Below are positions 7,796-45,235 of a stretch of 59,767 nt of DNA, one piece after another; positions within the stretch are counted from its first letter, which is position 1; each line of letters opens with the position of its first letter. The position numbers and the translations under genes are program-made. The DNA comes from Phycisphaerales bacterium (GTDB lineage: Bacteria; Planctomycetota; Phycisphaerae; UBA1845): assembly GCA_013140575.1 (NCBI GenBank), contig JABFSN010000133.1, forward strand, positions 1 to 59,767, read 5' to 3'. The notes beneath the pieces were generated by a model, which did no database searches, had not been told where the DNA came from, and saw only the letters and a program-made list of their open reading frames with translations.

Positions 7796-8060
7796 CGTAG
7801 GGTGGGCACTGCCCACCTCTTCGCATGGTCGCGACGCGAGGACTGGTGGGCAGTGCCCACCCTACAAAGCTCGTCGCTCTTCCTCGCCCGCGACCCACCA
7901 CTATTCAATTAGCCCCGAAGGGGCGACAGTCAATAGCCGGGGGCGTCAGCCCCCGGTGGCGTCATCAACACAAACAAGCCCCAACGGGGCGACGGACGCT
8001 GGCAGCCAAGAGCCCGGCGTAGATTTCAGAACCCCGGACGCCAGTCCGGGGCCGACCGGC
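7796..8060. repeat. dispersed palindrome cluster with paired inverted copies
   Basis: Contains GTAGGGTGGGCACTGCCCACC and, about 20 bases on, its inverted copy GGTGGGCAGTGCCCACCCTAC, so the two units also form one larger inverted repeat. These are followed by GCCCCGAAGGGGC, CCGGGGGCGTCAGCCCCCGG, GCCCCAACGGGGC and CCCCGGACGCCAGTCCGGGG. Six palindromes within 265 bases and no credible gene. Likely non-autonomous repeat elements or transcript-end structures; they mark the chromosomal part of the window and become rare to the right of the tRNA. Confidence 0.7.
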
Positions 8061-13468: not shown

Positions 13469-14727
<1,259 letters not shown>

Positions 14728-19579: not shown

Positions 19580-21184
19580 ATGCCGAAAAAGAACAAAAAG
19601 TCCGTACCCCTCAGTACCGTCTCAATTGCGCTGCTTCGTGGAATCAAGAATGCGGCTGATGCAATTGACTCAACTTTCAAGCCCAAGCAGATCGGCATGG
19701 TTCCTGCCATACTTCCCGAAGGGACTATGTTCTACAGGGCCGGAAAACTCCAGCCCGCAGCTTGGTGGAAATTCTTATCGCCCGCCGTTCCCACAGGTGT
19801 CGCACCGCTCAGAGGGCAGCACCCCGATGCGGTGATTGTGTTCAAGGCGGGGACAGATTGGTTTGCCGCCATTTTCGGCCACGGTCGTACACTGCTGGCT
19901 GATGCCGCAATTGACCCGGATTTCGGCTTTCAGACCGCCATCAGGATTTGCGACGCTGATGACCTCAAGATCATGGAAGTTCGAACAATAGAGACGCGTA
20001 GCCGATTCACTCGAGTAAAAGTCAGCGACAAAGCTCGTGTCGGTGCCTTTGGATTGGACACTGACACCGATCTACTTCGTGGGATTGGCGGAACGTGCAA
20101 GAACAAGGCCCTGTGCGAGCGGGCCGAAGCGTCAGGCGGAGCAATCTCGTTGGCGGCGCGCATTCAGATCGGCGATCTTCCGGCGACCGCCAAGAGGCTT
20201 CGTGCTGCTCGAAAATTGCCTGTAGATGAGGATCTGGAATGGGTCGGTCGGGTAGTGAGAATCGTCGACGCAGCGGAACGAACACGGCTTGATGCCGAAT
20301 TGGAAGTCCGCCTGAAGAATGGACAACATACAAACATCCGACTCGCCCTGCCAGACACTCGTGAGGACGACGTAAGCATTGTTGCGAGGTTCCTCGCCGC
20401 GACCGGACCGCGATTCTCGCCCGACCCTTCGGATTATTTGATACTCAAGAATCGGCGTTGTGCCTCTCTCTTGGCGAGGGCACGCGGTGATCGAGTGTAT
20501 TTGGTTCGCGAGGGAGACGATATCCCGTTAGGCCATCACACGGTCTACCGATGCTTAGTTGCAGAGGTCAGTGTCGCGAACAAGACTTACATGCTTATCG
20601 AGGGTGAGTGGTTTGAGGTTAATCAAGATTATGCGAAGAGAGTCCGGTCCGCCGTGAAAGACATGAAGGTGTGGAAGCCAACGACGGCATTGCTGAAGTG
20701 GGATGCAGCCGGATATCCAGGTGACGGTGAGACCGGTTACAATAGAAATATCTGCTCAAGCCGGACGGATTTCGCACCTCTGGACAAGAAATTCATTTGT
20801 TCCGCAGGTGTTGGCAGTCAAGTCGAGCCAGCGGATTGGATTACTTTGGATGGACACTTGGTCCATGTCAAGCGCCGGGACCGAGATAGCAGCGGCCTCA
20901 GTCATGTCTTTGCCCAAGGGCTTGTATGCGCGACCTTACTTAGGAATGAACGAACGTTCGGAAAAAAGCTCGCGGAGAAACTTCCGGCGAGCCACAACCT
21001 AGCAAAGACGAAGCTCACGGCCAAGATTTTCGACCCCACCGGCTGGAACGTTGTGTTCTTGATTCTGGGTGCGGATAGTAAGGCCCCGGGCGCGGATATT
21101 CCATTCTTTTCACAAGTTAACCTACGAAAACAAGCTCGCCTCATCAAAAACTTGGGCTTTGGGTGTCTACTGGCAGGCGCTTAG
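19580..21184 (+). CDS. DUF6119 / TIGR04141 family protein (putative defence component)
   Basis: 534 aa. I recognise the family from its layout: an N-terminal domain with PAAWWKFLSP and AVIVFKAGTDWFAAIFGHGRTLL, a middle part opening GLDTDTDLLRGIGG, and the C-terminal hallmark FDPTGWNVVFLILG followed by IPFFSQVNLRKQARLIKNLGFGC. These sporadically distributed proteins occur near restriction and phage-defence genes; their biochemical activity is not known to me. GGAG precedes the ATG by about ten bases inside a small CTGGAGTTTCCAG hairpin. It closes the operon with the helicase and zinc protein, 26 bases downstream of the latter. N-terminal MPKKNKKS is basic. Confidence 0.85.
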   Translation: MPKKNKKSVPLSTVSIALLRGIKNAADAIDSTFKPKQIGMVPAILPEGTMFYRAGKLQPAAWWKFLSPAVPTGVAPLRGQHPDAVIVFKAGTDWFAAIFGHGRTLLADAAIDPDFGFQTAIRICDADDLKIMEVRTIETRSRFTRVKVSDKARVGAFGLDTDTDLLRGIGGTCKNKALCERAEASGGAISLAARIQIGDLPATAKRLRAARKLPVDEDLEWVGRVVRIVDAAERTRLDAELEVRLKNGQHTNIRLALPDTREDDVSIVARFLAATGPRFSPDPSDYLILKNRRCASLLARARGDRVYLVREGDDIPLGHHTVYRCLVAEVSVANKTYMLIEGEWFEVNQDYAKRVRSAVKDMKVWKPTTALLKWDAAGYPGDGETGYNRNICSSRTDFAPLDKKFICSAGVGSQVEPADWITLDGHLVHVKRRDRDSSGLSHVFAQGLVCATLLRNERTFGKKLAEKLPASHNLAKTKLTAKIFDPTGWNVVFLILGADSKAPGADIPFFSQVNLRKQARLIKNLGFGCLLAGA

Positions 21185-21297
21185 TCCGCATTCGATTGCG
21201 AACAGCCTGCCGGATTGCGACGATCTGTTGGGTTATAGAACCTGGGCAAAGAACTGCTGTGTTCGTAGTGACTAATGCATTTAGTTGGGCTATCTTG

Positions 21298-21322
21298 GAT
21301 CGGTGAAACAGTGTTTCACGAT
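21298..21322. repeat. strong hairpin at the start of the gene-free region
   Basis: GTGAAAC-agt-GTTTCAC, extended on both sides by GATCG and GATC. A related GTGAAAC recurs at about 21334. It lies about 115 bases after the DUF6119 gene. No T-run follows. Confidence 0.55.
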
Positions 21323-21576
21323 CGTCAGAATCACGTGAAACGCGTGGCCTGGCGTCTGGATCGTGGGATCGGACAACCGGTAAACCTGTCCACCAAACAG
21401 GCTAAGGAGGCGGAGTTCATCACCCGCCATGTTCGAGGCTCGTAGCGCTGAGTACGTCGAGAGGCGTTCGCTCAGTGCGAGGGAGGCTCGGCAGAGTAAT
21501 CCCAAGTTTTTGGAGTAATCCTGCCGTTCGATCCCATAGCGAATTTGGCGAATCGCTGACCGAGGGAACCTCCCCC

Positions 21577-22060
21577 AGCGACGCATGCGTCGCTGCCTCC
21601 TTCACAAGGAGGGGAGTGGGGACCGCTTACTCACGTGCGCGGGAAATGAAGACCGCTCCCTTTCGGCTCCTGCCGGTTGGCACTCCGTGGGCATCGACGC
21701 TGCGCGTCGATGGGTCGCGGCTCTGAAATTCGCCGTTGTTCTTTGCATATCGAAAATGGGCGACCGGGACATACCCTTGACTCGCGGCTTCGGGCAAAGC
21801 CCGATGGTCGCTTCGCGACCAGTGCCGCAATGCGGCACGCAGCGTGTCAAGGGCCGGGTCAGTCAAAGTGGGTGATGTTGTTGATGCAGCGAGTGCCGTG
21901 TGGCGGCACTGATCGCACAGCGATCGTCGAATGGAGTTCGATTCGTTGCGTCAATGGCTAATCCCCCTGCGGGGTTCGGGCCAAGCTTCGAGCGCATGCT
22001 CGAAAACGGCCCGCTCAACGCAAGCCCAGGCAGGGAGCTCGTCGGCAGCAATGCCGACGA
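21577..22060 (+). ncRNA. candidate structured RNA, module A: chain of hairpins and two three-hairpin junctions
   Basis: No credible ORF. In order: an 18-base palindrome AGCGACGCATGCGTCGCT; CCTCCTT-cac-AAGGAGG; CATCGACGC-tgc-GCGTCGATG; a closed junction CCCTTGAC (21774) / GTCAAGGG (21846) enclosing TCGGGC-aaa-GCCCGA, TGGTCGC-ttc-GCGACCA and GTGCCGCAATGCGGCAC; a second junction TTGATGCAGCG (21881) / CGTTGCGTCAA (21944) enclosing AGTGCCG/CGGCACT, GATCGC-aca-GCGATC and TCGAA/TTCGA; a long stem CGGGCC...TTCGAGC-gcat-GCTCGAA...GGCCCG; and TCGTCGGCA-GCAA-TGCCGACGA with a GNRA loop. The second junction stem contains one U-G and one G-U pair that work only on the plus-strand RNA. Density and nesting far exceed chance expectation by eye. 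Confidence 0.5.
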
Positions 22061-22262
22061 TCGGGGCGACGACAAGCCTCGGCGTTCCACGCAAATCGTG
22101 GACGGTGAAAAGCTCAACTGCGAAAGGCGGGATGACCGCTTCTGGGTAAGTTTGATCGGAGACGGTGCCAAACCGCGATAGAACGACCTGCGCTGAGGGT
22201 AAGGGGATCTTCTAGATTCGTACCCCGAAATCGTTCGCCAACGGGCGGGCGGAAACATGTCA

Positions 22263-22763
22263 GTCGGCGGAAGCCGGCGGGCGATCAGCGCTGTGAACGC
22301 AACGTGCGGGAGAGACGCACGCGGCGTTTCCAGGTCCAGCGACGTGACCGATCAGATGGAGACTGGTTCTAACCGGGGAAGGACTCTGGCGGCCGGGGTG
22401 ATGCCCGGTGCCCGCGACAGTCGCGCGGGTGTTTCAAATGCCGGAGTCTGGGAGCGGGGCCTGAGTAGGAGCGCGCGGAAGCGCGGCGGCAAAGCGGCAA
22501 GGCAGTCGCGAGGCCGTTCGTGCATTACGGGTGGTGCCGGGTGCATAACGACGACGAAAGGGCTGACGAGCATTTCCCATGTTTGCAGACGTGTCGGTGC
22601 GGCGCCGGGGCAGGGAAGTCCTGCCCCGGCCCGCGTCGGCGAGTCGGAAGACAGCCAAGCGGTCAAACGAGGACCGTCGGAAGACGGCCGTCGTTTGGCA
22701 GCGGAATGACGATGCACAGGCGGGGTGTACCCGCGGGTGTATCGAGGTTGCGTGGCCGCAACC
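22263..22763 (+). ncRNA. candidate structured RNA, module B: GNRA-capped stems upstream of two small ORFs
   Basis: Continuation of the gene-free tract. Seen: GTCGGC-GGAA-GCCGGC (GNRA loop, one U-G pair on the plus strand); GTGCG-ggagaga-CGCAC; CCGGG-gtgatg-CCCGG; CCCGCG/CGCGGG; an 11-bp perfect stem GCCGGGGCAGG-gaagt-CCTGCCCCGGC; GTC-GGAA-GAC; CAAACGA..CCGTC-GGAA-GACGG..TCGTTTG (two stacked stems, GNRA loop); GGTTGCG-tggc-CGCAACC. Three GGAA tetraloops in 420 bases are typical of large structured RNAs. The 5' GTGCG recalls group II introns, but no domain V and no reverse transcriptase is present. Another 300 bases of unassigned sequence lead to the next ORF. Confidence 0.5.
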
Positions 22764-23071
22764 GCTATGTATTGGGCAACTGCAATAGATGAATCTAGCT
22801 GCATGGGGCGGACGAATGCCGATCGCATGATGCGGGCCGATGGCGCGCCGATGGAGCCGGCGCGGATTGGTTCGCGGAGGCGAGATGCGATGGCGTTTGG
22901 TTCGCAGCGATGCGGTGACGGATTCAGAAGGGGCAGTTTGTTCAGGACGTGGCGGTACGCGGCCGGGTTCTTGTGGAAGGAGGAGGTTTGGCATGTCGAG
23001 CCGTGACGCGGGCGACCGCGTGGCCGGCGTGCAGGGGGATATTTGGTTTCGAGCGAAAGGAGGTGATTCGC

Positions 23072-23293
23072 ATGGGTTGGTGGCGCACGGGTAGCGGCGG
23101 GGTCATCGGCGACGGGCCGGCCAACATCATCGACGAGTTCGATGATCGGTTCTGGCCCGAACCGTCGAGCATCCCGATTGACGTGCGGGTGCGCATCGTA
23201 GCGTGCTACCGGGAGGATTTCGACCGGGAACCGACCGTGCAGGAACTCAGCGATTTGCTGGAGTTCTGCGGGCCGGGCCCAGATACGGATTGA
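23072..23293 (+). CDS. small acidic protein following the structured-RNA tract
   Basis: 73 aa. The ATG has a near-perfect ribosome site (AAAGGAGGTGATTCGC), which decides the start over the longer open frame. Sequence: MGWWRTGSGG, then an acidic, helical body (IIDEFDDRFWPEPSSIPIDVRVRIVACYREDFDREPTVQELSDLLEFCG). No known domain. About 80 bases separate it from the next ORF on the same strand, so the two are likely one transcript with the RNA tract as leader. Function unknown. Confidence 0.7.
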   Translation: MGWWRTGSGGVIGDGPANIIDEFDDRFWPEPSSIPIDVRVRIVACYREDFDREPTVQELSDLLEFCGPGPDTD

Positions 23294-23374
23294 AGCTCGG
23301 AGGAAGGAAGGTTGAAGAAGGCTTCGCGGGTTGTGCCAAAACAACCCGTACTTTTCAGTGGAGGAGAGAAGCAC

Positions 23375-24058
23375 ATGGAGTATCGATGCGTCGCAACGTC
23401 GGTCGAAGGGTTCGTCCAGCAGCTCGCCGTGGCCTACATCACGCACGGGTATTGGTTCTACGTGGCCGGGGAAATCCCGGAAGGGAAGGATCTAGCCGTG
23501 GTCGATGCGAAGCTTATCAAGCGGTACGGGATTGCGATCTCAAAATGGGCGCGCTGTCGGCGCAAGAAACAGGGGTTGGCGAACATGCAGTACCTGCGGC
23601 ATGGACGGTTTTTCGTACTCCTTGCGACAAAGGGACGGCACGCGTTCTTCGAACGGGAGCGAGCGTCGTTCCGGGATGTCCGCCGCGTGCCGATCAAGTT
23701 TGCGGGGTACAGCATCGGCTGCCGGACAGGCCGCGACGGACAGTGGCATGCGTCTGTGCGAATCGACCCTGGTACATACGCTGACCTCAAGGCGTTCATT
23801 GTGGAGGCCGGAATCGGGTCTAGCGTCGAGAATCTGACAAACCACTTCGTACGAACACGCCTCCAACCGTACGCGCCGGTTCGCGGTCAATTGCTCAGCG
23901 TCTGGCGCACTCTGAATCGCGCGCGACGGACAGCGGGGTTGGAGGGATTCCCCGTCGAGTGCGTGCCGTCACAGCGTCGCCTTCTACAGCCATTTCGACC
24001 CTTCGCCGGGCGATTGGACACTTTGGCAACCACTGATGGCATCGCTGGTGCGCCGTAG
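23375..24058 (+). CDS. 227-aa basic protein of a planctomycete-type family, function unknown
   Basis: Start at the ATG after GGAGGAGAGAAGCAC; the upstream in-frame ATG lacks a ribosome site. Begins MEYRCVATSVEGFVQQLAVAY, then YWFYVAGEIPEGKD, a basic segment KWARCRRKKQGLANMQYLRHGRFFVLLATKGRHAFFE, VPIKFAGYSIGCRTGRDG, WHASVRIDPGTYADLKAF, and a C-terminal PVRGQLLSVWRTLNRARR. The composition (Arg/Lys with alternating beta strands) suggests nucleic-acid binding. I have the impression that similar proteins are frequent in planctomycete genomes but cannot verify it. No catalytic motif is recognisable. Placed just after the structured-RNA tract, it may bind or mobilise that RNA; this is inference. Confidence 0.7.
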   Translation: MEYRCVATSVEGFVQQLAVAYITHGYWFYVAGEIPEGKDLAVVDAKLIKRYGIAISKWARCRRKKQGLANMQYLRHGRFFVLLATKGRHAFFERERASFRDVRRVPIKFAGYSIGCRTGRDGQWHASVRIDPGTYADLKAFIVEAGIGSSVENLTNHFVRTRLQPYAPVRGQLLSVWRTLNRARRTAGLEGFPVECVPSQRRLLQPFRPFAGRLDTLATTDGIAGAP

Positions 24059-24211: not shown

Positions 24212-27200
24212 TCACGACGGGGTTGATTGGCCGTTCTGTTTCAACGCTTCGACAGTCTGAGCAAGGAATTCCCCATCCACAAAAGGTACCTGCGCGAAAA
24301 TGATCTCAGGTGCGCCTTCAAGCTTCGCTGCGAGGTGCCCCTTGCCAAGCAGCCGCTCCGCCCCCTTTTCGCCAAGAGCAATTTCCGAGGTCCCCTCGCC
24401 GTCCACGCGAAGTACAAGTCGATTGCCGAGGTTTGCTCGCAGCTGCATCGGCATTACGTTCGCATCTGGACGTTGCGCAGCGAACACTAGCGAGATACCC
24501 GCGGCTCGCGCCTTCATGCCCAATCGGCCCACAATGTTCGACACGGCGTCCGCGTATTCCGGGGTCATCATCCATTCGGCGAACTCGTCATGGATTACCC
24601 ACAAGAACGGCAATCGCTCGGTCGCGGTCGGCTTCCGATTCAGGTCGAAGATGTTCGAGACCTTGTTCGCCTTAAGCACGGAGTATCGCCTATTCATCTC
24701 ATCGACGAGTTCATTCAGCGTGTGGACTGCCTTGTCCTGCGCATCGATGAGGCCGCCCCGAAGATGGGGCAAGCCCTCAAACGCGAAATAGTCCACTCCG
24801 AGCTTCGGATCGATGAGCACAATCCTCGCTTGCGAGATCGTGTTGGTACAGGCGATTCCGAGGATAATGTTCTGCATCAGCACTGACTTGCCGCTGCCAG
24901 TGGACCCAGCGATAAGGGTGTGCGGCGCGTTGGACTTTGGAGACAAAACTAACGGACTGCTGTCTTCCTCTCGCACGGCGATGAGCAGGTCATGATTGCC
25001 GTGAGTCCAGTTCGGGTTCCATTTCTTCCAAACGTCGGGCAGGTGCAGCACGCGACGATTCGGACGTGCGATGGCAATCGCCACAACTCCGGGTTCAGCA
25101 CGGACAGACACCACATTCAGTCCGTGAGTGGTCAGAAACTCTGAACGCCGTTTGAGCACTTGCTCCACCGTGAGGTTCGCACTGCCTTGGAATTTCAGCA
25201 ACGCGGCGTTCGGGGTGAGCGCCCTCGCCAACAGTTTCGATTGAAGCTGGAACTGCTGCAACGCGCCTTTGCACTTGTTCTCGACTTGCCGCAGCCATTC
25301 TTCGTCGGCCGCGCCGTCTTGAGAGCCGCCCTTATATCCGGCGATGAGTTGACCCACCCGCGAGCACGGCCACGCGTCTGCGGGCATGACACGTGGTGCG
25401 GGCATTGCTGCTGGCGCAGGAGCGGGGGACGGCATTGTTGTTGACATTCCTGGTGGAGTTGGAGTTGTCGGCTCCGGGCCCTTACCGCCGCCCACGCCGG
25501 GTGCGTTGCCGCATGCGTCAGGTTCGTGTTCCGCTTTGCGCCGGTGAACAATCTGGATGCGGTCAGACGGCTTCCGATAGGTCTGCTCTTTCCAGATGTC
25601 TTCGCCCGCATTTGCCCTCCGGATAGGCGTCGGGTTCACGTCCTTCGCGTAGCTCAACACCAACTCACGCAGCCGCGCTCGCGAGAAGACTTCCTGCCAC
25701 GACTCCTCGGACTTAGCCACCGTCACGAAGTCCGAGCACTCCGGCGCGTCGGACGGCCCAGACACAAAGACATGCGAATAGCCGCGCATGTGGATGCCGC
25801 ACTTGCCGTAACGCACGGCCCTGCGCCACGCGGCCAGATCAATCGGTGAATTTGCCGGGAACTGGATGCCGTTCAGCATCAGGTCGGAAAAGCGGGAAAG
25901 CCACAGGTCGCGGTCGAGCCGCTTCGGGTCGCCGAAGATGGCGTCATTGATGCGACGCACCGTATCGCGCAGTTGTTTTTGTGATTCCTTCCGTTTCGCT
26001 GAGAGACTGGCGTGGTCGATGTACTTGGACTCCGACACGATGACCGCCAGTTGGAGTTTCCCATCCGGCGTCTGCTCGGGCGTTAGCGCGAGAATGTCGG
26101 CAATCTGCTCTTCGCGCTGACCGAGCCACTCGGCGTAGTCGTCGAGGAAATACCAACCGAAGTGCCGCGTCGCGCCAAGCTCGTACCGAATCATGTAACG
26201 ACTGAGGACGACGCCCATGAGTTCGCTGGCGTTGCGACCGCGTTTGGCGGCGCGCAGCACGATGTCACCGGAAATCTCGTTCGCGTCATTGATGAACTTC
26301 TCCGTCAGTTCGCGGTACTCGGCATCGGTCAACTCAAGATTCAAGTCCTTCACACGGCCCAGCACCATCGAGCGCAGCAGGCTCAACGACGCAGTCGATG
26401 AAATCAAGACATTGCGCCCCTGCGTTGCACCCTGCTTGTAGCGGATGACCTTGACGCTTTGGTTGAGCAGTTGGCGACGGTCAAGAAGCTCGTCGTAGTT
26501 CACCACCCAGGTTCCGAGGTTGTGAATTTCTTTGAAGATGCTGGCGGTCTGCGGGTCGTTGAAGTCAAGCTTGCGGGCCGGAAGCAATCGCTTGCTCTCG
26601 ACGCAATCCCAGTCGCCTCGGATGAACGTGGTCAGCGCGGTGATGAACGACCACCCTTCCTTCGTCTGTACCGGACAGCAGAGATAGACGACGGATTTCA
26701 TGTCGTCGCTTGGCGACGGACGCCGCCGTGACCAACGTGCCGGGATGAGAGTCTCGGACTCTACCGGCACACACGCTTCCAAGTACCACTCCATGCCGGC
26801 GTGCCGGGCGATGACATCCTGCAAGAACACCATGTCTGCGGGAGGGCCGTCCTTCGGGTCGGGAACCGGCGCTTGGTCGGCCATGATCCCGATGCGGAGC
26901 CGGGCCATAAAATCCTTCGCAGCCTCGCTGGACACGAAGGAGTCCGCGTCAGCGTCCGGCGACTCAATGAGCTTCTCGTAGAGCTCGCGGAGCTTCGCCC
27001 CGTCTCGGTGACGCAGGATGATTTGACAACGCATGTCATCCTGGTCCTCGTGAAGCTCGTTCATTTTGCCTACGAGCGCGTTGGGCAGCCGCGCCGAGTC
27101 GCAGTTGTAGAGCACCACGGAAAGGTTGGCCCGCTCGTGCGGATAGAGGGACAGGAACCGCTTGGTCAAATCGACGATGAGTGTGGATGTCTCCACCGGA

Positions 27201-29485
27201 CTTTCGTTCGTGTCGTCGAAGCCATCGTTGCTGATGACCGGCGACTCGTGAAGGCTGTAGTCGAGATGATGGTCGGTCAGCGAAAGCACTTCTGGCTTCT
27301 TGTCGTGCCAGCCCAAGACGATTTCCGGGTAGTAGGGGTGCGCTAGTTCCGCTTCGAGTTCCTTGAAGAACAGCGGGGGGTCGCCAAAAAACACATTTTC
27401 CGCCGTAAGCAGGTGTTTGAGCAGCGACGCAATTTGCAGCGCCTTGTTTGCCATCGCCGAAAGCCGGAGCGGATGCCACGGCGCGACGATGGCGGTAACG
27501 CGTCCGCCCTCTACAATCACAGAGCCAATTTGCAGCAGCGGACGCAACAGACCCTCTCGATTGCGGTCGCCTTTCGCTTCGCGGCAAATGGCATCGAGCA
27601 GCACGCCGTAGTCCTCCGCCTGCTTGACCATCCCCTCGCAAGCCAGCCCTTCGGCGGCGAAGCCTTTGATCGCTGTCCGGTAGCTCTGCTGAAACGCTTG
27701 AAACAACGTGAGCAGCTTCGAGGCGGCCGCCTCGGAGATGAGTCCCTCCTGCTGTGCCTTGGCAAGATTCGCAGGCCATAGCAGGGCGATGTCGTTTTCC
27801 TTCTTGTGGGTGGAGACGAACGAGCCGCGGTCTTGGCCATACGCCGGATATAGCGTGCGGACGTTGCGGAGGTCGAGCGACTGGTAGCGGCCCTTGCCAC
27901 TCACGGGCTCGCGGTTCACGCGGCAGAGCATTAAGGGATGCTCCGCGAGGCGCTGCCAATCGCCTGGGAACTCACCGGCGATGGAGTTTGGGTCGTAAAT
28001 CCAGACCATTTGCTTGAAGGTTGTCTCGGTCGTGCCGGAAAACAGTTCGACCTCCAACTCCAACAAGAACTTCAATTGCAATGCCGCTTTCGCGGCGGAC
28101 TTGTTGACGTAGGGCTTCGTCGCTTTGCGCCACTGGTCGGCCAGAGCATCGAAGTTCATTAGGTCACCCACATCCCACGAGACACGAGTTCCGAAGAGTG
28201 ACTTCAATCCGCGAAAGCGCCGGGTGAAAAACAAGCCCGCGTCCTCATTCAGCTCCTTAAGGTCTTTCTTTGTGCGGCGATCGCAGGTGATCTTCAGACG
28301 CCGCTTGGACGATGGCATGTCTTGATCAAACAGCCATTCCAGACACAGCGCGATGCCGAGCAGAAAATCCTCTGTCTCAATGGGAGTCCCAAAAATGAAT
28401 CTGTCCCACCTGGACTTGAGTGCTGGCTGCTCCTTGAGTTCGTTCCGGTGGCGTCGATAAAACTCTTCGTCTTCGTCCTGTGCCTCGGTGCGGTTGCCGT
28501 CGCGCAGGTTTACAAGGTACTCGCGCTCGTCAGCGGTTAGCATCGCCTCATCCCGCTCTTCGTAGAATGCGATTGTGGCTTTACCGAGGTTGAACCTCTC
28601 CTTCTTCAACCCATCAAACAGCGGCCTGACCATCTCCCACTCGCAACGAGCCAGGTCAGCAGCGTGTCTGTTCCACCCGCTCTCGGCTGCGATGAACGCT
28701 TGGATGGTCGGGTGGATTTCGTCCGGGATAGAATCCTTCACTTTGGCGAACGCCCCCGCCAACTCGTCTTCAAGCAGCATTGCCTGCGCTGCTGTCTGCT
28801 TCAGCAGATAGCAGGCGCGTTTCCTGATAGTCTGCGAATACAGCGCCTTCCACCTTGATGTGTGCCCAGCGGTCTTTTCATTGAGTGCGGACGCGAACGC
28901 AGTGTCTTTCGGAACACGCAGCGCGGGGAGCGCGACTCCCAATGCAGCCAGCACCGGCTGGCCGTCCTCGATGGCAATGCGAATTTGGAGAATGTATTCC
29001 GCGAACCGGTCAAGTGCGAAGGAACGGACTTCGAGCAATCCCTCCAAGGCTTTCACCCACCAGCGCTGATGCTCGTCGAGGATGGGCAAACCTTCAGCAG
29101 CCCACTTTACCCAGAGTGCGGGATGCGCGTAAAGCTGCGGCGCGCCTATGGGCACCAGATCCTTGAGCGACTGCTCTTCGTCGTCGCCGGTGTTTGCCAC
29201 GAGCAGCGCCGACTTGGAGCACGCGGCATTTCGGAAATACGTCGTGCGCTCGTTCGTGAGTATGTGCGCTGGCAAGCCGTGACCGCCGACGAAATGAACC
29301 GGCAGGTTGATTTCGACGAGCGTAGACAACGTGGCGTCATCGAGGATGGTTTTCGCGACCGCAGCGGTCTGGTCGGCGCTCAGACAGTCGAGCAAATAAC
29401 GGGCAACGCCAGTCGAATCGTCGTCTGTGAGTCGGTCGCGCAGGTAGCTTGCGACCACTTTGCCGATGAGTTGGTCGCTGGTCAT
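24212..29485 (-). CDS. sspH: SspH/DptH-like restriction protein with FtsK/HerA-type ATPase domain
   Basis: 1757 aa, the size expected for the largest subunit of phosphorothioation-linked restriction complexes (DptH/SspH). The first ~1350 residues hold no domain I can name with certainty; a Pro/Ala linker (about 1360-1400) separates them from the C-terminal FtsK/HerA motor: PHTLIAGSTGSGKSVLMQN (Walker A, near 1530), ARIVLIDPKLGVDYFAF, FLWVIHDEFAEWMM (Walker B, near 1630), GISLVFAAQRPDANVMP and RLVLRVDGEGTSEIALGEKGAERLLGKGHL. It likely translocates or opens DNA lacking the sulfur mark. Its ATG overlaps the preceding sspG stop (ATGA), so expression is coupled. Last gene of the operon. Confidence 0.88.
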   Translation of the reverse strand: MTSDQLIGKVVASYLRDRLTDDDSTGVARYLLDCLSADQTAAVAKTILDDATLSTLVEINLPVHFVGGHGLPAHILTNERTTYFRNAACSKSALLVANTGDDEEQSLKDLVPIGAPQLYAHPALWVKWAAEGLPILDEHQRWWVKALEGLLEVRSFALDRFAEYILQIRIAIEDGQPVLAALGVALPALRVPKDTAFASALNEKTAGHTSRWKALYSQTIRKRACYLLKQTAAQAMLLEDELAGAFAKVKDSIPDEIHPTIQAFIAAESGWNRHAADLARCEWEMVRPLFDGLKKERFNLGKATIAFYEERDEAMLTADEREYLVNLRDGNRTEAQDEDEEFYRRHRNELKEQPALKSRWDRFIFGTPIETEDFLLGIALCLEWLFDQDMPSSKRRLKITCDRRTKKDLKELNEDAGLFFTRRFRGLKSLFGTRVSWDVGDLMNFDALADQWRKATKPYVNKSAAKAALQLKFLLELEVELFSGTTETTFKQMVWIYDPNSIAGEFPGDWQRLAEHPLMLCRVNREPVSGKGRYQSLDLRNVRTLYPAYGQDRGSFVSTHKKENDIALLWPANLAKAQQEGLISEAAASKLLTLFQAFQQSYRTAIKGFAAEGLACEGMVKQAEDYGVLLDAICREAKGDRNREGLLRPLLQIGSVIVEGGRVTAIVAPWHPLRLSAMANKALQIASLLKHLLTAENVFFGDPPLFFKELEAELAHPYYPEIVLGWHDKKPEVLSLTDHHLDYSLHESPVISNDGFDDTNESPVETSTLIVDLTKRFLSLYPHERANLSVVLYNCDSARLPNALVGKMNELHEDQDDMRCQIILRHRDGAKLRELYEKLIESPDADADSFVSSEAAKDFMARLRIGIMADQAPVPDPKDGPPADMVFLQDVIARHAGMEWYLEACVPVESETLIPARWSRRRPSPSDDMKSVVYLCCPVQTKEGWSFITALTTFIRGDWDCVESKRLLPARKLDFNDPQTASIFKEIHNLGTWVVNYDELLDRRQLLNQSVKVIRYKQGATQGRNVLISSTASLSLLRSMVLGRVKDLNLELTDAEYRELTEKFINDANEISGDIVLRAAKRGRNASELMGVVLSRYMIRYELGATRHFGWYFLDDYAEWLGQREEQIADILALTPEQTPDGKLQLAVIVSESKYIDHASLSAKRKESQKQLRDTVRRINDAIFGDPKRLDRDLWLSRFSDLMLNGIQFPANSPIDLAAWRRAVRYGKCGIHMRGYSHVFVSGPSDAPECSDFVTVAKSEESWQEVFSRARLRELVLSYAKDVNPTPIRRANAGEDIWKEQTYRKPSDRIQIVHRRKAEHEPDACGNAPGVGGGKGPEPTTPTPPGMSTTMPSPAPAPAAMPAPRVMPADAWPCSRVGQLIAGYKGGSQDGAADEEWLRQVENKCKGALQQFQLQSKLLARALTPNAALLKFQGSANLTVEQVLKRRSEFLTTHGLNVVSVRAEPGVVAIAIARPNRRVLHLPDVWKKWNPNWTHGNHDLLIAVREEDSSPLVLSPKSNAPHTLIAGSTGSGKSVLMQNIILGIACTNTISQARIVLIDPKLGVDYFAFEGLPHLRGGLIDAQDKAVHTLNELVDEMNRRYSVLKANKVSNIFDLNRKPTATERLPFLWVIHDEFAEWMMTPEYADAVSNIVGRLGMKARAAGISLVFAAQRPDANVMPMQLRANLGNRLVLRVDGEGTSEIALGEKGAERLLGKGHLAAKLEGAPEIIFAQVPFVDGEFLAQTVEALKQNGQSTPS

Positions 29486-31020
29486 CGGGCCTCCGTGTGA
29501 AACGGATTGACGACGTAGGCGCAGCCGTCTGACAATCGCCGCAACAGACCCAAGCTGCCGAGCCGCTGTTCAAGACGGCGGGAGTTGCCCTGAAACGCTT
29601 TCTTGTCGAACTCGTCCTTCGAGAGTACCTGTTCGGCTTCCTTATCTCCGAAGACGAAGCCATATCGGAGATGCAGACGATCAAGGAACTGATGAAGCTC
29701 GATGCGCTTCTCCACATTGGCGAACAGTAGAGTTTTGAACAGCGCATCCGTGGGTGCGTAACGGAGCTTCACAGTGCCACGCTTCGACACCAGGCCGATT
29801 TCGCGCCCGTAGTTGCGGTGGATGTTCGCTACGTGTTGGCGATGGCGCTTCATCGCGTCTTGGCGAAGCCGGGAAATAAGTTCACCAGCGTCGGGTGGGC
29901 CGTCGTAGTCTTCACCCCAGCGCACTTTCTCTTTGAGAATGCGTCTACACTTCTCGAACGCACCGTTCTCCGTGATTGCCCGCTGCCAATCGTCCGACCG
30001 GTCGATATTCGCAATGAATGTCTCGACGGCCTGGGCCGGCAGCAGGTTGTTCGATTGGTAAAGGTCGCAGGATAGCTCGCGAACAAGCGTCTTCTTCGGC
30101 GCAACGACTTCGCAGATCAGTTTGAGCGGTGTGGACGAGCCGAGAAGTTGGCGTGACACGCTCAGCTGGTATTTCAGAATATGCAACCCTGCCAAGTTGA
30201 CGAGATGTGGGAACACATCGTAGCTCGGGATGTTGAGCCGCAAGACGGCCAGCCAATCGTCAGCAAGGTCGTCAAAGCAGGGGTGGCTGGCGTAAGGCAG
30301 GAACGCATTGGCGCGTTCGCCGCTCATGTCCTCGGCACTTGTTGGCTGTAGACAGTTGATGATCGAGGCCCAAGTCTTTTCTGCCTTGGCCAACCGCCCT
30401 TTGAACGCGGCCAGGAGTTCCTGTTTGCGCGGCGTGCGGCAGAGCATCAGGTAGAGCATTTCGCCTGTCCTGCCGAAGAAGCGCCGGTCGTTGGTCGAGG
30501 CGTTGTTGTCCAAGTCCTCGTAGAGGCAACCCCGGCCGTAGGGGAACACGAATTTCGATGTCCAACGCTTGTTGCTGTTGACTTCAAGGCTGGTGGAGCG
30601 CACGAGCGACACGATCTCACAGAAGTCCTCAAAGGAATGAAAGTGATCTTTGAGAAACCCGAACTCGGGGTGATTGAGTCCGGTTGCCGCCGACTTCATA
30701 CGCCGCAACCATTCTTCCCAGCGGTTGCTGTCGTTTGGATAAGACAGACGGATGTTCGGCAGATGCGGATTGTTGAACAGGATGTTGCGGAGGTAGAGCC
30801 GGTGAGCGGCCCGATATTTCAATTCGTTCGGTTTGTCCTGTTCATCGAAAGCGCGGCCCTTGTCGTCCTCGTGCGTGAACACGTTCAGGAACTCAAGAAA
30901 AACGAACCACGGCAACTGCTCGTCGTAAAGGCGGTGCCCCCAAATCGCCTCGTCCACCCACATGGAGGACGACTGTTCGAAGCTCTCCGGCGGCGGCAGT
31001 GGTTGAGGCAGCGCATTCAT
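29482..31020 (-). CDS. sspG: SspG/DptG-like restriction protein
   Basis: 512 aa, translationally coupled at both ends through ATGA overlaps with sspF and sspH. No catalytic motif is obvious: the protein is mixed alpha/beta with many aromatic residues (SMWVDEAIWGHRLYDEQLPWFVFLEFLNVF at the N-terminus, DEQDKPNELKYRAAHRLYLRNILFNNPHLP, and FHSFEDFCEIVSLVRS). The C-terminal ~80 residues (RIELHQFLDRLHLRYGFVFGDKEAEQVLSKDEFDKKAFQGNSRRLEQRLGSLGLLRRLSD) look like a winged-helix. I assign it as the G subunit from size, position and coupling between recognised F- and H-type ATPases. Confidence 0.8.
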   Translation of the reverse strand: MNALPQPLPPPESFEQSSSMWVDEAIWGHRLYDEQLPWFVFLEFLNVFTHEDDKGRAFDEQDKPNELKYRAAHRLYLRNILFNNPHLPNIRLSYPNDSNRWEEWLRRMKSAATGLNHPEFGFLKDHFHSFEDFCEIVSLVRSTSLEVNSNKRWTSKFVFPYGRGCLYEDLDNNASTNDRRFFGRTGEMLYLMLCRTPRKQELLAAFKGRLAKAEKTWASIINCLQPTSAEDMSGERANAFLPYASHPCFDDLADDWLAVLRLNIPSYDVFPHLVNLAGLHILKYQLSVSRQLLGSSTPLKLICEVVAPKKTLVRELSCDLYQSNNLLPAQAVETFIANIDRSDDWQRAITENGAFEKCRRILKEKVRWGEDYDGPPDAGELISRLRQDAMKRHRQHVANIHRNYGREIGLVSKRGTVKLRYAPTDALFKTLLFANVEKRIELHQFLDRLHLRYGFVFGDKEAEQVLSKDEFDKKAFQGNSRRLEQRLGSLGLLRRLSDGCAYVVNPFHTEAR

Positions 31021-33011
31021 GGCATTATTTCAACAGCTCTTGGGTCGGGCGTTCCCAGCTCGGTCAAGGAGAGGAGCATGAGTGAAATCGTCGATCCTGA
31101 TGGCGATTCCTCTTTCGCCTGCCGCTTGGAGTATGCGGCAATGAGTTGGCTCTTGAACGCCAGCAAGTCCTCGTAGCACTCCCTGGAAAAGCTAGCGGGC
31201 AACGCACCCTCAATCGCGATGCGCAACAGGAACTCGTAGCGGATAAGCGTGAGGTTGAAGTCTACATAGTTGTCTGGAGCGAAGAAGACCGAAAGCAGCA
31301 CCCGCCCACTCGCAGGATCAACACGCAGAATTACTTTTTCGCCCTTGCTCGGTTCGACCGACACGCGCTCTACGAGGATGCGGCTCACCTTGGCTTGGGA
31401 GTAGTTGCCGCTCGTGGCCAGAAAGAGCTCCCGGTCACTGTTGATGAGCATACCGGTGAACACACGGTTCAACCCCTTCACCAAATGAGACACGAGGGGA
31501 CGCTTCACAACCCCACCCCGCTTCAGCACGGCTACAACCTCGTCAAGGTATTCCCCGGCAAACCTGAATACCGTCAGTTCCCACAGGTTCAATTCGACTT
31601 CAGCGTCCTTTGGAATTTTGAAGAACAGTCCGCGCCGCTGGGCGACCAGCATTTGCAGAAACGCATTATCGTTCTCTTCATCTTCGCTCGTACCTTCGAT
31701 GTACTCGTGCTTGGCCGCGTAGAAACGGTCGTCTGCGCCGTAAAACTTGTCCTTCTCGATGAAATTGGCGAAATAGTCACCGAGGTTTTCGTCGCCGTCA
31801 CCGAAGATGAGCAAGTTGTCTACGCGGTTCGATGTCTCGGAGCCGATTTGAAACCGCTCCAAGAAATCAAAAATGGTGATGGACTGCCGCCGGATGTCGG
31901 AAAGGTTCGCGCCGAAAATGTTGTTGTAAATACTGGCTTTGGACACGGTGCCCGCTGCGATGACTTTCGGTACGTCGCCGGGCAGCATCAAGTGCTGACC
32001 GACATCAGGATGGCCGAGCACAGCGTTTGTGAGCAGCAGGAGAATCTGGCGCACCGGAACGTGAAGGCCGTTGTAGTCGCACAATTCGAGCAGTGACCGC
32101 AGCCGCGCTCTGACCAATGGCGTGCCGAGCAGTTCGTAGTTTTGCCGGATCGGACACTTGGGACCAAACACATCGTTTTCAGCGGGCACGCCCTGTTTGA
32201 GTTCGTCCCAACCCGGATGTGCAAGGAACTGTTCGATGGCCCGGTCAAACAAGACGGCGGAACTGGCACGACTCAGGTTGAAGAACTTCAACCGCACCCC
32301 AGTCTGCTCCTGCCGGTCTTCGACAAGCAGATCCTCGAACACCTGCCGCGCCCGTTTCACGTCGGGCGTGCCGTTCAAGCGCCGAAAGGACTCGATGAGT
32401 TGACCGTCGTTGGCCGCAATGAGGAATATCTCGTCCGAGTCCGAGCTGAATAGCGAGTGACAGAACTTTTGAAGCAATGCCTCCTTGGCTACGTCCCACT
32501 CAGCGCCCTGCTGTGGTGCCCAGCCGCTCAGGTCGCGGATGAAGTGAATCTTCACTGAACGGTAGAGGCGCGGCTCTGCTGATTGTGGCCAGGTTGTCCG
32601 GTCTTTCGGATACTCAAACCCGATGGTCAGGTAGGGGTTGTCCGATGCCCAATCATCGTCGCTTCCCCGCAGTGCTTTCCATACCTGCCTACAGAGATGC
32701 GTTTTCCCGTCGCCTGCGGTGCCAGTGAGGATGACGGATACCGGATCGGCGGTCGCTCGGTTGAAGCAGTCAGCGATTTCCGCTTGTTTTGGGTGCTGAA
32801 AATCAATCGGTGCAATTTGTTGGCGGCGAGCGAGACGTTGTAGCGTCTCGTCAAACATGTTGTCTGCCCTGGGCACCGGCCCGTAGTGGCGAAGGAACTT
32901 CAACCAGGCGTGACCACTGTTTGCAAAGGAGGGATTAGGCACGTATTCGGCCCGTCCTCTCTGAGTCTCCATCCGGGCGAGCGACTGCGCCATGGATTGC
33001 CGACACGGCAT
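31017..33011 (-). CDS. sspF: SspF/DptF-like ATPase of phosphorothioation-linked restriction
   Basis: 664 aa. N-terminal AWLKFLRHYGP, then a P-loop VILTGTAGDGKTHLCRQVW (Walker A GTAGDGKT near residue 98) and EIFLIAANDGQLIESFRRL near residue 190, typical of DptF-type AAA ATPases. A long helical region follows, then a C-terminal beta-rich part (KVILRVDPASGRVLLSVFF). Start uncertain: the first ATG gives the full frame, a second ATG (codon 14) opens METQRGRAEYVPNPSF; neither has a convincing ribosome site. About 180 bases separate it from sspD, so it may have its own promoter. Its stop overlaps sspG. Works with SspG and SspH to damage DNA without phosphorothioate. Confidence 0.85.
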   Translation of the reverse strand: MPCRQSMAQSLARMETQRGRAEYVPNPSFANSGHAWLKFLRHYGPVPRADNMFDETLQRLARRQQIAPIDFQHPKQAEIADCFNRATADPVSVILTGTAGDGKTHLCRQVWKALRGSDDDWASDNPYLTIGFEYPKDRTTWPQSAEPRLYRSVKIHFIRDLSGWAPQQGAEWDVAKEALLQKFCHSLFSSDSDEIFLIAANDGQLIESFRRLNGTPDVKRARQVFEDLLVEDRQEQTGVRLKFFNLSRASSAVLFDRAIEQFLAHPGWDELKQGVPAENDVFGPKCPIRQNYELLGTPLVRARLRSLLELCDYNGLHVPVRQILLLLTNAVLGHPDVGQHLMLPGDVPKVIAAGTVSKASIYNNIFGANLSDIRRQSITIFDFLERFQIGSETSNRVDNLLIFGDGDENLGDYFANFIEKDKFYGADDRFYAAKHEYIEGTSEDEENDNAFLQMLVAQRRGLFFKIPKDAEVELNLWELTVFRFAGEYLDEVVAVLKRGGVVKRPLVSHLVKGLNRVFTGMLINSDRELFLATSGNYSQAKVSRILVERVSVEPSKGEKVILRVDPASGRVLLSVFFAPDNYVDFNLTLIRYEFLLRIAIEGALPASFSRECYEDLLAFKSQLIAAYSKRQAKEESPSGSTISLMLLSLTELGTPDPRAVEIMP

Positions 33012-33192
33012 CTCTCAACGCGCTGGCTGGACTCCCCCCCCGGATCGCGTAACGCAAATTGAGCGGCTGCGGCCGCGCGGTCCAATTGATCGCTTCACGC
33101 CGTTTTGGGGCCATGTCGAGTGATCGGGCGGCAGTGGGAGATTCGAGGCTCATGGGTTCACACCAAGGCTGGAAGCGTAACACCAATATGAC

Positions 33193-33999
33193 CTACACGT
33201 GGCAGAACGAACACGGCAGGTTCTCGTCATCGTCATCGGAGTCATCCAGGATGTCGACAAGGGCTTTGCTCTTGGCACCGACTGAGATGGTCTGCCGAGC
33301 AAACTTCGTATTGATCTCCTCGACACGGGCCGGCTGCTCAAGCTCAGCGAGCGATTCTCGCTCGCTCCAGGTGTAGCGTTGTCCAGTATCTTGATCGGTC
33401 TTCTCGTACTGTTTGGCGAGCTCGAACAAATCAGGGTGGTTCTCCTTCAACCCGACCCATTCGTGCTTGCGCTGGTAGAAACAGAAAAAGCAGCCGGACC
33501 TCGTCCGCCACGAGTAGTACGGAGGGACGCCCACACCGCTTTCTTCAAGGATGCGATGGACGCCGTCCAGTGTGATTCCGGCTTCAATGAACGGGTAGAC
33601 GGGGGTGATATTGGGCTTGGTCGGCTTGTACCCGCCACGGTTCTCGTCGGCACGGATTCCGACGTACATCTGCACGTCTACATCGCCCAGCTCCTCGACC
33701 CACGCCTCGAAGGGACGGATCTTTAGCATTTTCGTACACCAGCGCATCCTCGGGGAGGGCAGGTATCCGCCGTAGATCTGAAGCCAGTGATCAAATCCGC
33801 GGTCCGCTCGGAGGCGAATGATCTGCTTGCCCAGAAATGCCTCGATTCTGGCGAGGTAATCATATGTCTCTGGCAGCTCCTTGTCCGTGTCGCTGAACAC
33901 GTAGTCCAGCTCGGGCAATCGGTCCCGCAAGTAGATCGCCATTGCGGCGCTATCTTTTCCCCCAGAGAGCGATACAACGTGACGAATGGGACGGCTCAT
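33193..33999 (-). CDS. sspD: SspD-like ATP pyrophosphatase (PAPS-reductase family) for DNA phosphorothioation
   Basis: 268 aa. The PP-loop SLSGGKDSAAMAIYLRD lies at residues 8-25, the ATP-pyrophosphatase signature of the PAPS reductase/DndC/SspD family. RMRWCTKMLKIRPFEAWV near residue 85 and RSGCFFCFYQRKHEWVGL near residue 168 supply Cys residues that could hold an Fe-S cluster or carry sulfur (CxxC in GCFFCF). It activates the DNA backbone phosphate by adenylation for sulfur insertion. ATG overlaps the sspC stop (ATGA), ensuring coupled synthesis. It ends FCHV with an acidic stretch (DDSDDDDEN) just before. Confidence 0.92.
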   Translation of the reverse strand: MSRPIRHVVSLSGGKDSAAMAIYLRDRLPELDYVFSDTDKELPETYDYLARIEAFLGKQIIRLRADRGFDHWLQIYGGYLPSPRMRWCTKMLKIRPFEAWVEELGDVDVQMYVGIRADENRGGYKPTKPNITPVYPFIEAGITLDGVHRILEESGVGVPPYYSWRTRSGCFFCFYQRKHEWVGLKENHPDLFELAKQYEKTDQDTGQRYTWSERESLAELEQPARVEEINTKFARQTISVGAKSKALVDILDDSDDDDENLPCSFCHV

Positions 34000-36900
34000 G
34001 CGTGAATCTCCGCGGATTTTGGTGTTGAGGTCTCATCCGAAAGGGTTGAGCGGACAACACGGGCCAAAGCTGCAACCAAGAACCGACGATCGTTTCCCTT
34101 ACGGTGTGCATCGAGCACCGATCGGAGTTGATCCTCGATTGTGGTTACTGTACCAGCTTCATCAGGACCGATGTGGACGATAAGCCTAGACTCGGGGAAT
34201 GCGGTGCCAACAACGGAAAGGTGAATGGACTCGTCCGTCGACAGGTACGAGCCTTGCTGTCTCGCAAGTGCAAGCGCCTCCAACGATCGGAACGCCGATG
34301 CGACCTGTGCAAGCCGCACGCGGAGGCGCGCGCGGTCGTCGTCAATCCACTGAGAGGGGTGCTTATTCGACAAGAACGAAGCGATCGACTCAATCCATGA
34401 TCGGTCATCCGCTGATGCATCCGCGAGCCTAGCGCTGAACACGCGAAGCTCGGGGTTGAGGGCGAATGCGGTGACTTGGGCCGATCGATGTCTCAAGGAG
34501 GCTCGAATCCCGCGAGGATGAGGGGGATTCTCTAGGCCGTCGGCAAGCTCCTCTAATAGGGAATGGAGAAGAGCGTCATAGCCTTTCTGAAGCTCAGCAA
34601 GCGCGTTTTGCAGCGTACGGCGGAACCGCTGCACGTCGCCCGGCGTCGCTGGTTTCCGCGCAGCGAACGGCTCCATGCTGCACGCCTTTGGCAGTTCAGA
34701 GAAGAGAAGCTGATCTGGTTCTGTTGCGTCCAAAAGGGCGTGACGAACAGCTACGGCGGTAGGTGAAAAGGTTTTCGTGGTTCGGCAGAATTCGTTGAGT
34801 CGCCCAACAAACCGTAGGATTGGCTTCACCACGTCCAACAGGTCTCGTCGCCCAACTTTGCCGGCAACGGCGCTATGTCCGAGCATCTCAGCGAGTTGCT
34901 CGAAGACAACCGCCCGAACACCATCAACGTGCCAACGTCGAACGGCATAGTTAGACGGGGATTTGACAAGCTTTTCGAGTACAGGATCGGTGAGTTGGGG
35001 GAGAAAAGCACCTTTCTCGTATATGGCCACATCCGCTTCGCGAGCGAGTAAAGCCGTGCACACAATGATCGGGATCACACCTTCACGGACCCCATACGGA
35101 CGAGCACGGAGAAGGCTGAAGAGTTGATCCAAGGGCCTAGCTTCTGCCGCAGACTCGTCAAGGAAGCGTCGAACGGCTTTCATCATAGGGCGAGCCGAAG
35201 GTTCGAGTCCGGCTGGCCCGGTGGAGAACTGGTATCGATCTCCATGCCGTTGATGAAGGCCGAGCCGACTTAGCACGGAGAGATAAATACTCTTCTCTGG
35301 TGGATTTCCTTCGAGACCCAACCCGTCGACTTCACCGTTCCCAACCATCGCCTTCAAAAGGTTACCTTGTGCTGCCGCTGCCGACGATGAAAGCTCGCGA
35401 CGATTGATGATCTCATTTTGGATTGTTGGACAATCAGGAAACAGTTCATCACAGATTGCCGAAAGCCGTTCGTTCAATTCTCGGTGTGACCTTATTCGAA
35501 GGTCCGAACTACTCCTGATCCACCGAGTCGTACAGGTGCCTGGTTGGGCCGGCGTCAGTAGGTCAGAGAGCGATTGATCTAGTTTGCGACGTACTTCGTC
35601 CTTGCGAGCGGCTAGCTCCCGAAGGGCTGTCTGGTCATTGTGAAGCTCTCGTACTGAGCGTTCGACCCCATCGATAGCAGCTAGCTCGCGGGCCAAGGAA
35701 TCCACCTCGCGTGCAGCCGCGGGTACGCAGAGCACGATATTGGTGGAAACTGCCAAAACTCTCACGGTCTCATCCGACAGCTTCTTCGGGTCGCTAAGGT
35801 TATGCAAGAGGACTAGAAGATGACCGTCTGCCGTGCTTCGCGAGACTGCGTCGGTGGCCTCACCCGGTAGGGATGGCGAGACAGGGACGATATCAAAGTA
35901 CCGGAGTGTACCACGCTCAAAAGAATGGCGGCGTGCAACAAGGGGGCGAGGAGCGTAAATCCCGCGTAGGAGGTGGGTGACGGGTATATCACGTGCCTGG
36001 CCTGCACGAATTTCCGCAATCTTGGCCTCCACGTCAATGTCGCTGCCTTCCCAGAGGCCAAAGGACTTATCGAATTTGCGAAAGACGATCGCAGACTTTT
36101 GCTGCAGTGATTCCAGTGCCTTCTCAGCCTCGGCACGGCCAAAGTGAGGCATCACAGAAAGAACCACTGCATCGACCGTTGCGGGAATCCCATGCCATCG
36201 GCCGACGATGGTGAGCAGCGCAATCGTTCGCAGTACGTCGCACTCAGCAGAGGTCAACCCCGGGTGCTGCGCTTCGACGTTGAATGCGTCAGCCCATCGT
36301 CGGCCATCCCGGCTTGCGAGGAGCGCATCGCCAAAGACCCCGGTCAGATACTGATAAAGGTCCACAAGCCGATACAGACTTGGCCTCTTCTGACGCGAAA
36401 TAAAGTCCGGCAGACCAAAGGGCTCAGCCGATCTCAAAAAAGAAAAGGCGGAACGCTCGTTCTGTCCGAATCGTCGGAAAACTGGCCCAAGCAGCAGAAC
36501 AACGGTTGGGTGGAGGGGATAGCACTTGCCCAGAATGGTCCGATTCTGTTGTTGTCCATTCTTTGACGGAAGCACACGCAAACTCAGCACGTCTCGGCAC
36601 ACTTGTTGGTACGCCGTCTGCGTTGCAGGCGCGGAGTTGATAAGGGCTTCGCGGCCGCCCCCGACTGCTTCGGCGATCAGCCTGACCATATCGTCCGCTG
36701 ATTGCTCAAATACAATGTCCTCGAATCTACCTCGAATCTTTTCCCACTCGTGTTGCTGGGAAGGCACAAGCGTACTTGCGTAGCCCGAGAAGTCCTGGTG
36801 AAGCACGCCAACGATGGAAAGATCAGAATGAGGCCGGGACGCCATTTCCGCCATCTGTTGCAGGAGAAACACGTCCGATTGCTCAGGGTCTGCAGCCGCA

Positions 36901-44789: not shown

Positions 44790-45235
44790 CGGGTAGCGGC
44801 TTTCGTTTCAATTCGCTCATCCATCAGAGACGGTTGCCATTCTGCGCTAAGATGGGCATTCGAGACGCCATTTCTCGGTCGTCAGTAACACATAAGCGAA
44901 TCACCTGACGCCTTCATCAATGGCTTCAAAACCCGGTAACCGCGGTCACCAGGCGCGCGTTAAGGGGCGGGTTGTCAACCGTTGTCTGAAGGCCCGTAGG
45001 CGCGAACATTCCGCAATGGGCAAGCCTCAACCTGACCTGCGCCATGCTCGCCCAATTCCCGTTAGGCTACACAACGGCGCTTACAGCCCATAACACGTCT
45101 TTGAGAAGATTCGCCAATGTCTGACCGATTTGGGCGGGCTCCGGGTGATGCCGCGCGCGTCGCGGTAGCGCCGAGAGACCGGTGGTGCAATTGATGGTTC
45201 CAAGCGGTCCTTTGGACCGAAGGAGGTTTATTACC
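44790..45235. other. gene-free stretch before the DUF932 gene
   Basis: About 445 bases without a credible gene. It probably contains the promoter of the DUF932 gene; no clear -35/-10 pair was found. A weak inverted segment (CCCGGTAACCGCGGTCACCAGG) is present near 44934. Confidence 0.4.

Follow-up and report, generated by a model that had tools for sequence, protein, structure and literature searches.

A probable circularly permuted group II ribozyme upstream of acpG in a Phycisphaerales bacterium, and the predicted reverse transcriptase ancestry of AcpG

Gene content and identity of the tract

What occupies the approximately 1.8 kb between a DUF6119/TIGR04141 gene and two small open reading frames (ORFs) in a Phycisphaerales genome? 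The window, meaning the whole stretch of DNA that was analyzed, comprises 59,767 nucleotides of contig JABFSN010000133.1. A first-pass annotation had described the tract as gene-free, and this description held: the DUF6119/TIGR04141 gene stops at 21184, no credible gene precedes the ORFs at 23072 and 23375, and a Pfam search of the ORFs within the tract returned zero matches, including none to an intron-encoded reverse transcriptase (RT). Two minus-strand ORFs (22352-23446 and 21290-21586) were rejected as genes; the former has no family match, and both recur in relatives solely because the RNA described below is conserved. DNA conservation spans approximately 21268 to 22785. The RNA structure itself finishes at approximately 22765, so that 22790-23071 represents leader or intergenic sequence.

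Folding energies were compared with those of dinucleotide shuffles, as had been proposed in the first pass. The z scores of 21290-22780 were -8.7 on the plus strand and -7.8 on the minus strand, and that of domains 1 to 4 (D1-D4, defined below) was -7.2, whereas two coding controls scored -2.7 and +0.5. Energy alone does not tell the strand. The assignment to the plus strand follows from the motifs of domains 5 and 6 (D5 and D6), from the splice sites, and from the orientation of the genes downstream.

In circularly permuted (CP) group II ribozymes, D5-D6 comes first and D1-D4 last, and the linker between them is cut out as a circle (Roth et al. 2021, PMC8637638). The class has GGGCG as its published 5' splice-site motif (PMC8637638). 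These RNAs are proven catalysts with no known role. The tract shows the same order, with D5-D6 at 21445-21535, the linker at 21538-21757, and D1-D4 from 21758 to approximately 22765. The plus-strand interval 21443-21537 matches Rfam RF00029 (group II D5-D6; 41.2 bits, gathering threshold 40, E 3e-6); this match was found by a permissive Rfam scan only and is missed by the default whole-window scan. Matches to whalefall-1 and to miRNA families scored under gathering and were rejected. Covariation among relatives bears out the proposal of a large, ornate, structured plus-strand RNA. The idea that it belonged to an unrecognized class did not survive, since the domain order and the GGGCG site are those of the published CP group II ribozymes (PMC8637638); the RNA adds a member to this known class and does not found a new one. 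The tract is thus very probably a CP group II ribozyme heading an operon with genes for a 73-aa protein and AcpG, with predicted back-splicing and with AcpG predicted to be a catalytically dead RT.

Structure and distribution of the RNA

The 5' part of the RNA and its flank comprise the following features.

21268-21296, plus strand: promoter-like element GTGACT-N17-TATCTT, directly 5' of the RNA
21303-21428, plus strand: 5' stems upstream of D5 (P1/P2-type region); hairpins 21377-21407 and 21409-21428 covary
21445-21478, plus strand: D5, matching RF00029, with a GAGA (GNRA) tetraloop at 21459-21462 and a 2-nt bulge, UC
21481-21537, plus strand: D6, with unpaired branch-site A 21531 and the predicted 3' splice site between 21537 and 21538
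21538-21757, plus strand: linker, the predicted excised RNA circle of 220 nt, flanked by 3' and 5' splice-site motifs

Nucleotide conservation begins at the promoter-like element (approximately 21268), and similar hexamers, spaced 17-18 nt apart and at the same distance to the RNA, were found in more than 10 relatives. A strict promoter scan did not list GTGACT-N17-TATCTT; at the level of consensus, the element is promoter-like.

The stems upstream of D5 (helices 1-3 of alignment A3) were paired in 100% of cells, with two-sided changes in 8 of 11 pairs. In the same alignment, D5 has five pairs up to the bulge and a GNRA loop, D6 carries a bulged A, and the 14 pairs of D5 are 100% paired, nine of them with two-sided changes. 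The D5 triad is CGC in the window (21446-21448) and AGC in 9 of 19 loci, the base of the triad swapping together with its partner. Both AGC and CGC are known group II D5 triads (PMC4424553). Over the 41 pairs of the D5-D6 alignment, 98.6% of cells were standard pairs, and 29 pairs showed two-sided changes compared to 16.5 in shuffles; when the partners were slid by 1-3 columns, pairing fell to 33-43%. G-U pairs, which are kept only by RNA, are present in this alignment. The column of the branch-site A (21531) is invariant across the 19 loci.

In close relatives, conservation extends up to the end of D6 (21537-21538), breaks, and resumes further on. The linker is conserved neither in sequence nor in length. 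The 220 nt of the window are the longest of 63 linkers measured, the others ranging from 12 to 189 nt (median approximately 24) after correction of three loci with a chance GGGCGA inside the linker. D6 ends in AU in all of the aligned loci and in nearly all of 64 loci, and GGGCGA lies downstream of the linker in 63 of the 64, so that an NU-type 3' site and a GGGCG-like 5' site bound the linker. A pairing of the EBS1-IBS1 type was sought by an ungapped alignment scan, a per-locus complement search, and a 64-locus covariation scan, none of which gave a convincing site; the best p value in a permutation test on chosen regions was 0.12. One segment gave a match with p 0.0005, which was not accepted given approximately 70 tests.

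The 3' part is as follows; the labels of domains 2, 3, and 4 are tentative.

21758-22380, plus strand: predicted 5' splice site GGGCG and D1, whose internal helices covary
21774-21853, plus strand: expanded D1 side stem 1 (first three-hairpin junction), a short single hairpin in most relatives
21882-21954, plus strand: expanded D1 side stem 2 (second junction), a simple CCGCC..GGCGG hairpin in relatives
22381-22449, plus strand: domain 2 (tentative), closed by a 10-bp helix that is 99% paired and has two-sided changes in 8 pairs
22458-22564, plus strand: domain 3 (tentative), with closing helix 22458-22462/22560-22564, 100% paired, and covarying internal helices
22595-22763, plus strand: domain 4 and 3' hairpins (tentative), including hairpin 22659-22702

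Counting nested helices only, D1-D4 has 231 predicted pairs, which were 93% paired with two-sided changes in 150; this structure was predicted from the same alignment on which it was scored, which favors it. Slid controls were 37-44% paired, with two-sided changes in 44-64 pairs. The D1 closing helix (21962-21966/22375-22379) was 93% paired. Hairpin 22659-22702 has 18 pairs, 99% paired, 15 of them with two-sided changes, and a terminator-like hairpin follows at 22746-22763. Covariation among homologs, which the first-pass annotation had named as its own check, is therefore strong in both parts of the molecule.

The two long closing stems noticed in the first pass exist (CCCTTGAC/GTCAAGGG at 21774-21853 and TTGATGCAGCG/CGTTGCGTCAA at 21882-21954), as does the GGAA hairpin, at 22257-22285, with 11 pairs showing two-sided changes among relatives. 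Neither three-hairpin junction is a domain of its own; both belong to D1 as side stems, and nearly all relatives have simple hairpins in their place. An ARAGORN call of tRNA-His at 21871-21956 was rejected, as it corresponds to an expanded D1 stem that is absent from relatives. The first junction is an 80-nt three-hairpin palindromic element, single-copy in the window, which recurs at 72-88% identity in other planctomycete genomes, both in and away from CP RNAs; one further CP locus (L041) carries it at the same D1 side stem.

DNA homologs were found in 44 of 150 related genomes. Culturable hosts with a close copy include Tautonia sociabilis (L137) and Aeoliella straminimaris (L171). From 19 loci, a covariance model (R1) was made for the first 164 nt of the RNA. 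R1 matched 45 of 114 genomes of the order (approximately 40%), 33 of 65 good-quality ones, and 26 of 392 genomes drawn from the phylum, approximately 10 of these strongly; the phylum-scan matches below approximately 40 bits, some of them multi-copy, are probably canonical introns and were excluded from the strong ones. In independent records, R1 also matched positions 101-212 of plasmid pPNAP05 of Polaromonas naphthalenivorans (22.3 bits, E 7e-4), where GGGCG begins exactly 32 nt past the match. The pPNAP05 RNA has a predicted circle of 32 nt and reacts in vitro (Roth et al., PMC8637638). Further matches lie on the planctomycete plasmid pK2D_1, on Leptolyngbya pLBX, and on a 5.5-kb Planococcus plasmid. 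Thermus RNAs were not reached by R1, and the comparison with Thermus therefore runs through AcpG only.

Two further arrangements were seen among the relatives. On Calothrix plasmid5, R1 matched two CP group II copies, on the same strand and approximately 2 kb apart (1599-1758 and 3729-3900). In another CP copy (L037, genome G057), D5-D6 was not found upstream of D1, and the upstream DNA resembles transposase coding sequence, possibly reflecting an insertion.

Downstream genes and the predicted fold of AcpG

The two ORFs into which the RNA had been said to read are real, conserved genes.

23072-23293, plus strand: conserved small protein of 73 aa (MGWWRTGSGGVIGD...), 40-80% identity in relatives by tblastn
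23375-24058, plus strand: acpG, 227 aa, predicted RT fold without catalytic aspartates, matching the Thermus AcpG profile

AcpG has been reported near CP group II RNAs in variable orientation and with no homology to known proteins (PMC8637638). The profile of the window AcpG aligned with that of Thermus AcpG in hhalign with E 2e-7 over 165 columns; the family (approximately 230 aa) has no Pfam or NCBIfam match. With a subset of closer AcpG sequences as query, 80 AcpG loci were collected in named genomes, of which 63 had at least 1800 nt upstream and were testable. In 61 of these 63, an R1 match lies directly 5' of acpG and in the same orientation, the median distance from D6 to acpG being 1249 nt. 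The 73-aa gene sits between the RNA and acpG, in 20 of the 80 loci. A search of viral contigs for AcpG relatives found none.

AlphaFold models of the window AcpG and of a second AcpG subfamily, made from different alignments, had pLDDT values of 91.0 and 91.7. In VIA, the best solved match of both was 8h2h_D, a group II intron RT (window AcpG: Z 9.8, rmsd 3.8, 185 residues; second subfamily: Z 10.0, rmsd 4.5, 198 residues). A Z of approximately 10 is moderate. RT-like polymerases and Prp8 came next (Z approximately 8), and all the matches listed were RTs, RT-like polymerases, or Prp8. Plain Foldseek reached E values of approximately 1e-3 only, retron and group II RTs again ranking first.

At the level of sequence profiles, the match of AcpG to group II RTs was weak (prob 4.6, P 0.009; 1 of 60 shuffled profiles scored higher), with RT7 and the thumb placed in matching order. 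A second profile comparison aligned AcpG YLRHGRFFVL with RT YVRYADDFLL. The RT5 motif frame is kept (compare YIRYADDFLL), and [YF]-x-R-x4-[FWA] is retained across AcpG with both aspartates missing. Positions 77-78 are mostly G/R, and position 78 is acidic in 1 of 49 sequences, so that there is no DD and YxDD is not found; the motif A aspartate is also unconserved. Given the RT fold matches and an RT5 frame devoid of aspartates, the best interpretation of AcpG is a shortened RT that would be unable to polymerize. The maturase of group II introns uses its thumb to position the branch helix of D6, and its counterpart is Prp8 (PMC10733145). By analogy, AcpG may have the same role, and it is probably a dead-RT maturase for the CP group II ribozyme.

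Other elements of the window were also recorded. Phosphorothioate defense genes SspH, SspG, SspF, SspD, and SspB (PADLOC) lie at 24212-38445 on the minus strand, with a 1208-aa ATPase occupying the SspC position. At 13469-14727, an integrase gene runs at its end into a tRNA-Gly(CCC), which is probably where the mobile element integrated. An Acido-Lenti-1 RNA (Rfam, 57 bits) lies at 7911-7956 on the minus strand.

Alternative readings, proposed mechanism, and known systems

The ancestry of the RNA could be as described and the copy nevertheless be decaying or inactive, its enlarged D1 stems and overlong linker stopping splicing. The linker length and the extra palindromic sequence in two D1 stems, missing from most relatives, are what such a reading would predict, and these features could impair this copy. 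The window also holds a second, clearly decayed CP group II copy at 44880-45210, directly 5' of a 387-aa ORF, in which the 5' stems are kept, D5 is missing, and D1 is truncated (R1 19.2 bits, E 0.0045). However, D5, D6, the branch A, the splice sites, and the remainder of D1-D4 are intact in the main copy and 83-93% identical to close relatives, the inserts are confined to side stems tolerant of change, and acpG and the 73-aa gene are intact. We therefore regard inactivity as unlikely.

Much less probable is a DNA-level element, such as a replication or transfer origin whose hairpins act in DNA. The mobile-element location and the proximity of the pPNAP05 copy to the plasmid origin fit such an element, but G-U pairs kept by RNA only, the D5 motif, and the splice sites do not, and most of the pTT8 ribozyme was deletable with replication retained, according to Aoki and Itoh as cited. 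The reading that assembly broke up or reordered an ordinary group II intron, making the permutation merely apparent, can practically be set aside: canonical group II introns are present in these genomes, but the same order recurs in 19 aligned loci from many genomes, including single-contig chromosomes, and in plasmids of other phyla, and the tract has no intron-encoded RT. Equally negligible is the GOLLD/ROOL-type giant RNA suggested in the first pass on account of size and ornateness, as cmscan returned group II D5-D6 with no GOLLD or ROOL match at E <= 5 in 20900-23400, and the domain order, splice-site motifs, AcpG, and pPNAP05 homology fit CP group II.

For the CP group II ribozyme, the comparison shows permuted order, intact D5/D6, the branch A, splice sites, a conserved fold, and a near-universal co-oriented acpG. 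Back-splicing would be expected from the in vitro chemistry of relatives. In the first step, branch A21531 would attack the 5' splice site (between 21757 and 21758); in the second, the freed 3' end of the linker would attack the 3' splice site (between 21537 and 21538). A circle of 220 nt would be released. What remains would be a T-shaped RNA, with D5-D6 attached through a 2'-5' linkage to the beginning of D1 and hence to the acpG message. AcpG, as a predicted minimal dead relative of group II RT/maturases resembling Prp8, may bind its own leader RNA and, judging from its predicted structure, aid ribozyme folding and D6 positioning.

Because its sequence and length are unconserved, the circle is unlikely to be what selection acts on, a view shared by Roth et al. 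(PMC8637638), and it may be a by-product. The reaction would most likely serve to protect the acpG message, or to control it in cis, on mobile elements; this is the least certain step of the scheme. In other phyla, acpG is reported to occur in any orientation or to be missing (PMC8637638), and cis control therefore cannot be universal. We give about even chances to the fuller proposal that AcpG is a miniature dead RT turned dedicated CP maturase, and that the pair in this clade is an autoregulated cassette of mobile elements, the acpG message being capped by the branched 5' end that back-splicing creates.

The locus shares with the published CP group II class its domain order, the GGGCG and NU splice motifs, the bulged A of D6, the stems upstream of D5, the lack of an internal RT ORF, a nearby AcpG, and an association with plasmids or mobile elements (PMC8637638). 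It differs in host: the locus is from Planctomycetota, and its relatives occur in bins of Verrucomicrobia and Acidobacteria and in plasmids of cyanobacteria, all of them phyla that are unnamed in the text of that paper. It also differs in its predicted circle (220 nt versus 32-86 nt published), its enlarged D1 stems, the CGC triad in half of the loci, and the constant placement of acpG, 3' of the RNA and co-oriented with it. With this locus the class gains a large clade whose RNA and protein genes are linked in fixed order; this linkage, together with the prediction that AcpG is a dead RT, is what is new here.

Compared to the group II intron-encoded proteins (8h2h, 8t2r, 6ar3), AcpG is predicted to share the palm, the thumb, and the RT5/RT7 frame (YxR....F, F.GY), whereas it is 227 aa long, has no YADD, is encoded after the RNA rather than in domain 4, and its sequence similarity alone is not significant. 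The lariat-capping ribozyme offers a possible analogy, raised by Roth et al., in the branched 5' end on a downstream message; unlike the CP group II RNAs, it is derived from group I introns and makes no circle. Prp8 likewise has an RT fold without RT activity and serves a group II-type active site (structural match, Z approximately 8), but unlike AcpG it is eukaryotic, 280 kDa in size, and part of a multi-RNA spliceosome. AcpG gains a predicted ancestry as a dead, Prp8-like RT. If this is true, the locus would be, besides the spliceosome and Prp8, a second case of a group II-type core with a separately encoded dead RT, in bacteria. Should AcpG activate the ribozyme and the branched product control the acpG message, the pair would form a simple bacterial parallel to the Prp8-snRNA core.
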